Origin: a bacterium
GTDB lineage: Bacteria; B130-G9
Assembly (NCBI GenBank): GCA_021160245.1
Contig: JAGHCW010000073.1
Span: 1 to 5,424 of the forward strand
Reading direction: 5' to 3'
DNA length: 5,424 nt
Part shown: in pieces, positions 4,447-5,424 of the stretch
Position numbering within the stretch: position 1 is the first letter of the stretch
Layout of the letters: each line of letters starts with the position of its first letter
The notes under the pieces: generated by a model
Seen by the model: the letters and a program-made list of their open reading frames with translations, nothing else
The model's database searches: none
What the model was told of the DNA's origin: nothing
Made by a program: the position numbers and the translations under genes

Positions 4447-4989
4447 CTAGTTTAGTATCCGGGCCAGATATCGCATCCTCACGGTGCAGCTTGATGGCCG
4501 AGACATATACTCGTTCTGGATTGCACCGCAAACGATGCCCTCAAAGCAGATTTCTTCTCCCTTTTCGGGAACCAGTTCAGCGTCCGCAAGCGGAAGCCAG
4601 AAGACGACATTCTCATCGTCAATTAGGCTCGGGTGGTCGTCCACCATATCAACAATAACCTGATAACCCTTGGCGAAAGGCCTTTGGGGAACACGCCAGG
4701 CTGCGCATGCCTTCCAACCCCATTGAAGTGGCAAGGTCTCCTCGCCAGCATGCCAGACTCGCCCACACCAGCGAACCTTCCCCTCAACTACTTTGTCCTC
4801 AAGATAAGCGTTGAACTTCGCCTCAGTCATGTGCTGTGCCTTGTACAGAATCTGATCGTACCTGCCAGGGCAAAGGGCCACAGAATCGAGCTGCGCGTCA
4901 ACTGTGGGCGGCGGACCTGAACAACCTCCAGCCAGAATGATCATCGCCAGTAAAACGGTTACGCGGAAATTAACAGCCATCCCAGTCAT
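4447..4989 (-). CDS. Small cysteine-rich lipoprotein, possibly OB-fold
   Basis: The protein has 180 residues. I place the start at 4989 because GGAGAG (5003-4998) lies 8 nt before that ATG; an ATG at 5010, seven codons earlier, has no such site. The N-terminus has R9, a hydrophobic core and the lipobox LAGGC with C23, followed by serine, which in Gram-negatives favours the outer membrane. A proline-rich linker (GPPP) follows. The mature part holds six further cysteines (40, 75, 95, 148, 154, 168), enough for three disulfides. The pattern VEGKVRWCGRV, then GYQVIVDM, NVVFWLPL and GEEICFEGIV reads like the strands of a small OB-fold lipoprotein (the tRNA_anti-like/PF12869 kind), but this is a guess from pattern. 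I do not recognise a named family. It sits directly upstream of the glycosyltransferase on the same strand and may share its promoter, suggesting an envelope task tied to glycan transfer. Confidence 0.8.
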   Translation of the reverse strand: MTGMAVNFRVTVLLAMIILAGGCSGPPPTVDAQLDSVALCPGRYDQILYKAQHMTEAKFNAYLEDKVVEGKVRWCGRVWHAGEETLPLQWGWKACAAWRVPQRPFAKGYQVIVDMVDDHPSLIDDENVVFWLPLADAELVPEKGEEICFEGIVCGAIQNEYMSRPSSCTVRMRYLARILN

Positions 4990-4997
4990 AGCGATTG

Positions 4998-5003
4998 CTC
5001 TCC
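4998..5003 (-). promoter_or_regulatory. Ribosome binding site deciding the lipoprotein start
   Basis: On the minus strand GGAGAG ends 8 nt before the ATG whose first base is 4989. The longer in-frame ATG at 5010 is preceded by AT-rich sequence without any purine-rich match, and the ATG at 4980 would be 17 nt away. This supports the 180-residue form, which also gives a normal-length lipoprotein signal of 22 residues before the cysteine. Confidence 0.7.
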
Positions 5004-5024
5004 ATCTCATTATCGATTAACAGA

Positions 5025-5037
5025 CGGTATCATACCG
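5025..5037. promoter_or_regulatory. 13-bp palindrome over the -10 box, possible operator
   Basis: CGGTAT-C-ATACCG is a perfect inverted repeat with 6-bp arms and a single central base. It covers the whole candidate -10 box of the minus-strand operon, where a dimeric repressor would block RNA polymerase. No regulator gene is in the window, so the operator role is inferred from symmetry and position only. Confidence 0.35.
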
Positions 5038-5058
5038 CCAGTCGCAACCTGAAAGCAA
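5029..5058 (-). promoter_or_regulatory. Candidate sigma-70 promoter of the lipoprotein-glycosyltransferase operon
   Basis: On the minus strand TATGAT (5034-5029) matches the -10 consensus at five of six bases. TTGCTT (5058-5053) gives a weak -35 at 18-nt spacing, matching only the TTG. Transcription would begin near 5020, giving a leader of about 30 nt before the lipoprotein ATG. The -10 lies inside the palindrome at 5025-5037. Confidence 0.4.
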
Positions 5059-5102
5059 ATCGCCTTCGACTTGGGGGTGTGACCCAGAATTGTAGGTAAC
5101 TT

Positions 5103-5140
5103 TGGTTCTGGCATCTGATGCGACATGAATGGTTCTGGCA
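5103..5140. repeat. 11-bp direct repeat flanking a small palindrome
   Basis: TGGTTCTGGCA occurs at 5103-5113 and again, identical, at 5130-5140, 27 nt apart start to start. Overlapping the first copy is the perfect palindrome GCATC-T-GATGC (5111-5121). The arrangement lies 45-80 nt beyond the candidate -35 of the minus-strand operon, so it could be an activator site. It could equally be the edge of the structured element that follows. Confidence 0.4.
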
Positions 5141-5164
5141 CGCAGGGCTGAGGCAATGTGCATC

Positions 5165-5246
5165 TTGCGCAATCCCTCATCGCCCGACTTCAGTCGAGGC
5201 GATGCAAAAGGCTACGATTATCGTAACCCACTGCTTCAGCTGTGGG
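5165..5246. repeat. Cluster of short palindromes and hairpins with shared TTCA loops
   Basis: In order: TTGCGCAA (5165-5172), a perfect 8-bp palindrome. Then a hairpin at 5178-5204, where CATCGCC pairs with GGCGATG (one bulged A at 5197) and CGAC with GTCG around a TTCA loop, 11 bp in all. Then TACGAT-T-ATCGTA (5213-5225). Then a hairpin at 5227-5246, where CCCAC pairs with GTGGG and GC with GC across one T-T mismatch, again with a TTCA loop. Two overlapping plus-strand open frames cross this area, but neither has a ribosome binding site or plausible composition. It could be a structured RNA, or palindromic ends of an IS200/IS605-type or REP-like element. Structure seen, function inferred. 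Confidence 0.5.
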
Positions 5247-5262
5247 GCTCGGAGGGCTGGAA

Positions 5263-5312
5263 ATGCTCCCTTGCATCTCTCTGGGATGGGGATTCCAGGG
5301 AGGAGGGAGCGT
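5263..5312. repeat. Long imperfect hairpin (about 20 bp of stem)
   Basis: Outer stem 5263-5270 with 5305-5312 (8 bp, core GCTCCC/GGGAGC). An asymmetric internal loop follows, five bases on the left (5271-5275) and A5304 on the right. The inner stem is 5276-5287 with 5292-5303 (12 bp including three G-T pairs), closed by a GGGG loop at 5288-5291. No T-run follows on either side, so it is not a typical intrinsic terminator. It lies directly after the hairpin cluster and is probably part of the same structured element. Confidence 0.5.
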
Positions 5313-5328
5313 GCGCCTCGTCAAGTCA

Positions 5329-5360
5329 CCCGACTCGAAGAGGCTGTCCAATAAGTCGGG
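5329..5360. repeat. 7-bp inverted repeat CCCGACT / AGTCGGG
   Basis: CCCGACT (5329-5335) has its perfect reverse complement AGTCGGG at 5354-5360, leaving an 18-nt loop. The same heptamer CCCGACT is found at 5183-5189 inside the first TTCA-loop hairpin, so the two sites share a word and could also pair in alternative ways. After it, 5361-5424 is T-rich on the plus strand and shows no gene. Confidence 0.4.
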
Positions 5361-5424
5361 AGTAGGCGGAGAAGGCTTTTCTGGGTTGTTTCCTTTTGTG
5401 TTGAAGTTCTTGATTGAATATGCC

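Follow-up and report, generated by a model that had tools for sequence, protein, structure and literature searches.

A hairpin-rich contig end in a Candidatus Coatesbacteria genome as probable nested mobile DNA

The window analyzed here, a stretch of 5,424 nucleotides, is a whole contig of a 3.43-Mb, 244-contig metagenome-assembled genome. It encodes a NosD/beta-helix protein on the plus strand (426-2204) and, on the minus strand, a PMT_2-type glycosyltransferase (4412-2235) as well as a 187-amino-acid protein without a Pfam match (5010-4447). A hairpin-rich region sits upstream of this last gene. None of the open reading frames across it has a significant Pfam match, which agrees with a first-pass annotation of the locus that had judged these frames not to be protein-like. 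An Rfam scan of the window gave no match to this region and two chance-level matches elsewhere, a tRNA scan of the window found nothing, and a promoter and terminator scan returned no promoter-like or terminator-like site. A scan of the genome collection with one window protein gave no result. The other end of the contig is also repetitive: positions 1 to 183 are 97.8% identical, in inverted orientation, to the first 183 bases of another contig, C13 (L112). Positions 263 to 330 hold a third dispersed repeat, GCGGGCTTGTCTTCGTCCATCGATATATCTGGGCAGACACAAGGCCCGCCCCTACG, which is 77 to 88% identical to the interior of 150- to 165-bp elements with GAGGCTGTCCAATAAG ends in this genome and in a relative, G001.

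The first-pass annotation had described dense inverted repeats upstream of the 187-amino-acid protein and suggested either a structured RNA or a palindromic mobile element. All six repeats that it listed are found in the sequence. As RNA, the 206-nucleotide region folds at -91.9 kcal/mol on the plus strand, versus -73.0 ± 4.6 kcal/mol in dinucleotide shuffles (z of -4.09; 0 of 200 shuffles as good), and the minus strand has a z of -3.53, with all 200 dinucleotide shuffles folding worse. As single-stranded DNA, positions 5160 to 5340 of the plus strand have a z of -3.70, again with every shuffle folding worse, and an intact relative (L018) reaches -5.2. Not all six repeats are stems, however. 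Three of them, at 5178-5204, 5227-5246, and approximately 5265-5310, are hairpins conserved within a repeat family. Of the remainder, 5165-5172 (TTGCGCAA) is an 8-bp palindrome of a size expected by chance, and 5213-5225 (TACGATTATCGTA) is peculiar to the window copy and not conserved, relatives carrying GGCTATCATTGTCCTAACC at that place. We rejected 5329-5360 as a real stem; one of its sides is an arm of the repeat and the other is formed by the terminal bases of a different element, an insertion sequence (IS) beginning at 5340, and the match between the two is fortuitous and without structural meaning.

BLASTN against the genome itself and alignment to complete copies (L009, L017, and L018) place a truncated copy of a Coatesbacteria hairpin element on the plus strand at 5074 to 5339. 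Complete copies are about 370 bp long, contain no gene, and end in terminal inverted repeats (TIRs) of about 24 bp with the sequence (G)GGGTGTGACCYNGGATTGTAGGTA. In aligned copies, the order is left TIR, about 75 nucleotides, hairpin 1, linker, hairpin 2, a spacer of about 80 nucleotides with a weaker central hairpin, hairpin 3, linker, hairpin 4, about 20 nucleotides, and right TIR. The window copy begins with the left TIR (5074-5101, plus strand; GGGGTGTGACCCAGAATTGTAGGTAACT), which matches the TIR pattern exactly at 5077-5098 and which, read as its reverse complement, forms the right end of complete copies. About 60 bp separate this TIR from the start codon of the gene at 5010-4447, upstream of which it lies. 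The second half of hairpin 3, the following linker, hairpin 4, and the right TIR are missing from the window copy because the IS begins at 5340 and the contig ends.

What remains includes a complete left REP-like module of hairpin, linker, and hairpin (5175-5248, minus strand), which scores 79.4 bits with a covariance model (R1) built from an alignment that includes the window copy itself. Hairpin 1 (5178-5204; CATCGCCCGACTTCAGTCGAGGCGATG, with a TTCA loop and one bulged base) is paired in 90.7% of cells over 25 copies and has compensatory changes at the second pair from the loop in 11 copies. A conserved linker (5205-5226; GTTACGATAATCGTAGCC on the minus strand, with GTAG at 5215-5212) separates it from hairpin 2 (5227-5246; CCCACTGCTTCAGCTGTGGG), which in most relatives is CCCCCGAATTCATTCGGGGG, a different stem with the same TTCA loop. 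Hairpin 2 is paired in 98.3% of cells, with two-sided changes at five of seven pairs and one-sided changes at none. The central spacer hairpin (5265-5310; GCTCCCT ... AGGGAGC, with alternative inner pairings) is the least conserved, its helices 3 and 4 being paired in 83% and 73% of cells. The fourth conserved hairpin in the window, hairpin 3 (helix 5), is recognized by alignment with intact copies from its 5' arm (5327-5335; CACCCGACT) and CGAA loop, which together span 5327-5339; its 3' arm is missing.

The interior of the element is an inverted pair of a module of about 70 nucleotides, consisting of a hairpin, a GTTARGAYAATGRTAGCC-like linker, and a second hairpin. The left half, when reversed, aligns with the right half, and both read hairpin, GTTARGAYAATGRKAGCC, hairpin. 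In 18 of 24 copies, the alignment of the left module with the right module of the same copy beats all 200 shuffles, a result that is partly due to shared palindromes. Loops are mostly TTCA or TGAA while stems vary, and GTAG or ATAG lies about 7 nucleotides from the stem in left modules, with GAGAG in right modules.

The element is dispersed. A BLASTN search of the genome with positions 5011 to 5424 gave 49 matches, mainly of three sorts. Some are copies of 5090-5340 or parts of it at about 70 to 77% identity, others lie at other contig ends and repeat the sequence from 5337 onward at 94 to 100% identity, and a third group consists of short copies of 5074-5101. A complete copy, used as the query, gives 33 matches within this genome and reveals more copies in the three related Coatesbacteria genomes compared with it (G001, G002, and G003); among 37 other genomes, only one (G004) matches, via a 24- to 26-nucleotide piece of hairpin 2. 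In a collection of 84,980 species, the motif of linker plus hairpin 2 occurs only in contigs labelled Candidatus Coatesbacteria, and viral contigs have no match to the hairpin motif. At an E value of 0.01, the module covariance model finds 52 modules in the window's genome and 46, 21, and 4 in the three relatives, with weak, mostly short matches in only two of the 37 other genomes. Among 47 neighboring module pairs, 32 are in minus-plus order, 29 of these being spaced 77 to 89 bp apart; the 14 pairs in the other order have variable spacing. Copies adjoin open reading frames in all orientations. Some stand in tandem (as at L050 and L066), and many are without recognizable TIRs, in tandem, or with a different tail (GATTCGGAGRAAGGAGCT), and the TIR-bounded unit may be only one of several ways in which the core has spread. 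We rejected the idea that free hairpins with TTCA or TGAA loops form a high-copy solitary REP, since they are not enriched in a 217-kb sample of the genome's contigs; such hairpins are, therefore, mainly found within these elements. A literature search found no description of such repeats in Coatesbacteria.

Both TIRs are present in L009, L017, and L018, as well as in copies from G001 and G003. Direct repeats of 9 bp lie outside the TIRs of three copies that contain the hairpin core, namely L017 (GATACGGAA on both sides), L049 (CGGGATCGG), and L073 (CCAGGCAGG). Because these duplications flank the TIRs of complete copies, the whole unit of TIR, modules, and TIR was inserted. The target duplication is imperfect or absent in other TIR-bearing copies, and the window copy, without its right end, displays neither a right TIR nor a duplication. 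G002 has the most TIR matches among the four genomes (29), and two 350-bp elements there carry the same TIRs with no hairpin modules: L136, which has the duplication GCGAAAGAG and in which no module was found, and L142, with an imperfect repeat outside the TIRs. No transposase with these TIRs was identified. An IS3-family transposase was considered as the owner of the TIRs; the only trace of one is a remnant about 200 bp from one TIR (on contig C96), which could be a mere neighbor.

Comparison of 25 copies revealed covarying hairpins. In these copies, 88.6% of cells pair, versus 82.4% in shuffles and at most 45% when partners are slid; two-sided stem changes occur in 81 cells versus 34 in shuffles, and the covariation score is 0.232 versus 0.127, all of these counts being biased toward the named structure, because RNAalifold alone recovers only hairpins 2 and 3 well and the remaining stems were counted on a structure named from the same sequences. 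The inner hairpin has 53 two-sided changes and no one-sided ones, indicating that G-U steps are avoided. The near-absence of G-U intermediates favors constraint at the level of DNA over RNA. Template-switch repair can give the same palindrome covariation without selection. The region has homologues, covarying pairs, and a folding energy better than that of shuffled sequence, which is the opposite, on each point, of what the first-pass annotation had named as speaking against an RNA or a mobile element.

From 5340 to the end of the contig (5424), the plus strand carries the end of a multicopy IS (GAGGCTGTCCAATAAGTCGGG...), which starts with GAGGCTGTCCAATAAG and within which the contig ends. Copies that are 94 to 100% identical lie at eleven other contig ends, which hold 35 to 87 nucleotides of this IS end. 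The junction at 5340 lies in the loop of hairpin 3, and the same IS is found in hairpin loops elsewhere, in hairpin 3 at L024 and L013 and in hairpin 4 at L012. At 11 of 27 IS ends, or at 9 of 25 when two self-matches are set aside, the 7 nucleotides that precede the IS are identical to an arm of an intact hairpin, versus 3.7% of random positions. The IS terminus recurs as an inverted repeat in short relatives. Only ends of the IS are assembled, with no autonomous copy among the assembled sequences, and the IS TIR pairs looked at in G001 enclose only short elements or unrelated open reading frames. Two contig ends, L026:1-57 and the end of L040, have in common a different sequence behind the same GAGGCTGTCTAATAAG terminus, which may be the opposite end of the IS. 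A preference for REP hairpins has been described for ISPpu9, ISPpu10, ISPsy8, and ISPa11 (PMC1525189); the IS at 5340 resembles them in that it and several other copies sit in REP-like hairpin loops, a comparison limited by the fact that this IS is known from its ends alone.

REPINs are inverted pairs of palindromic units at fixed spacing that form clusters and display compensatory stem changes (PMC3116915), and the element described here shares all of these features, along with hairpins that serve as IS targets (PMC1525189). It differs in that each unit is a hairpin doublet with a conserved 18-nucleotide linker, in its tag, which is not adjacent to the stem, in its tens rather than hundreds of copies, and in its envelope of TIRs and 9-bp duplications. 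In REPs, GTAG or GTGG lies 0 to 2 nucleotides 5' of the stem (PMC6006769), an arrangement that we did not find here, nor did we find in the genome a RAYT gene flanked by the same repeats or any intact RAYT gene. The only Y1 gene over the family cutoff in this genome is a truncated IS200-type fragment (L047) with no module beside it.

GTAG-tagged REPs that flank Y1 transposase genes are called REPtrons (PMC3733652). A second type of module in the phylum, hairpin-TGACAATGGTAG-CCGTAGGCGGGAGCCTACGG, fits the GTAG rule (PMC6006769) and flanks a Y1 gene of G002 on either side; the window's genome has about two dozen matches to such a GTAG-module Y1 locus. The linker of this type resembles that of the window element, whose stems are different and whose tag is displaced or degenerate. 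One module of the window type lies about 120 nucleotides upstream of the same Y1_Tnp gene in G002 (E value, 6.4e-7). At L145:1297-1995 (G002:C195), an IS200/IS605-type Y1 gene has GTAG-tagged hairpins on both sides and a window-family module just outside them, an arrangement that resembles a Coatesbacteria locus of the REPtron type. By their model scores, both of the Y1 proteins flanked by hairpins are IS200/IS605 transposases and not REP-associated ones. A 274-amino-acid RAYT-like protein in G003 (L146:540-1361, G003:C370) reaches 76.5 bits against the model for REP-associated tyrosine transposases (cutoff, 80), with no window-family module within the flanks searched. Because the tag is displaced or degenerate, the hairpin-flanked Y1 proteins are IS200/IS605-like, and the genome has only a Y1 fragment, we call the interior REPIN-like and do not class it as a REPIN.

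We propose that the region is probably nested mobile DNA, in which a gene-free miniature Coatesbacteria transposon (5074-5339) is interrupted by an unrelated IS (5340 onward). The first layer would be a nonautonomous miniature transposon of about 370 bp with TIRs and 9-bp target duplications, and the second layer would have arisen when the IS took the loop of hairpin 3 as its target. Complete copies were presumably moved in trans by a cut-and-paste transposase that recognizes the TIRs. The internal module pair may derive from a REPIN- or BIME-like repeat that may once have been mobilized by Y1 transposases still present in relatives, and the hairpins would act at the level of DNA, serving also as landing sites for other elements. 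As in bacterial MITEs, the copies are short, free of any transposase or other gene, bounded by TIRs and target duplications, dispersed, and multicopy; they differ from these in an interior that is an ordered inverted pair of covarying hairpin doublets and in that such doublets also occur without TIRs and in tandem. The element is, then, MITE-like, with an interior that resembles a REPIN or BIME, and represents a new family within a known class of elements and not a new kind of RNA. The first-pass suggestion of a palindromic mobile element is borne out by the matches within the genome, the copies in three relatives, the TIRs, the duplications, and the covarying hairpins, and its comparison with REPs was apt as a description of architecture.

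Other histories would produce parts of this picture. Under one of them, the element is a REPIN or BIME proper, its module pair mobile as single-stranded DNA via a REP-associated Y1 transposase and its TIR ends acquired later. The inverted pairs at fixed spacing, constant-loop hairpins, tandem clusters (L050 and L066), GTAG-like tag of left modules, module beside a Y1 gene in G002, and commonness of copies without TIRs all point in this direction. We nevertheless regard it as doubtful, given a GTAG that stands 7 nucleotides from the stem in the window copy and gives way to GAGAG in right modules where the rule is 0 to 2 nucleotides (PMC6006769), the assignment of both hairpin-flanked Y1 proteins to IS200/IS605, a RAYT-like protein in G003 with no module in the flanks searched, no intact Y1 gene found in the window's genome, and 9-bp duplications that enclose TIRs rather than modules. 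An improbable elaboration combines the two modes in a chimeric element, a TIR transposon with a REPIN-like interior that could be moved both by DDE-type transposases through its TIRs and by Y1 HUH transposases through its hairpins, its loops being preferred landing sites for a third element.

The remaining explanations fare worse. Low folding energy, covarying stems, and an element start about 60 bp from the gene at 4447-5010, on its upstream side, would suit a conserved structured noncoding RNA, or a leader acting in cis on the minus-strand operon downstream, that is incidentally multicopy, yet we consider this very unlikely. The element has no Rfam match and no promoter-like or terminator-like site, its copies adjoin open reading frames in every orientation and bear TIRs and duplications, and changes in its stems skip G-U intermediates; for these reasons, the first-pass reading of a free-standing structured RNA is unlikely. 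IS200/IS605 elements have neither TIRs nor target duplications. The likelihood that the region is the folded end of such an insertion sequence, as the first-pass annotation had also proposed, is close to nil: hairpins with constant loops are present, and the phylum does contain Y1 genes accompanied by hairpin arrays, but complete copies have TIRs and target duplications, the window contains no Y1 gene (nor was an intact Y1 transposase found in the genome), and the IS at 5340-5424 shares its terminus with short relatives, in which it forms an inverted repeat.

The family, as we interpret it, encloses an inverted, REPIN-like pair of hairpins within TIRs that are flanked by 9-bp duplications, and an IS has repeatedly inserted into its hairpin loops. 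This IS explains breaks in the metagenome-assembled genome, where it forms the end of at least 12 contigs; several of these ends fall inside a hairpin of the same kind. It would, therefore, be wrong to interpret such regions as genes for RNAs or as regulatory leaders.
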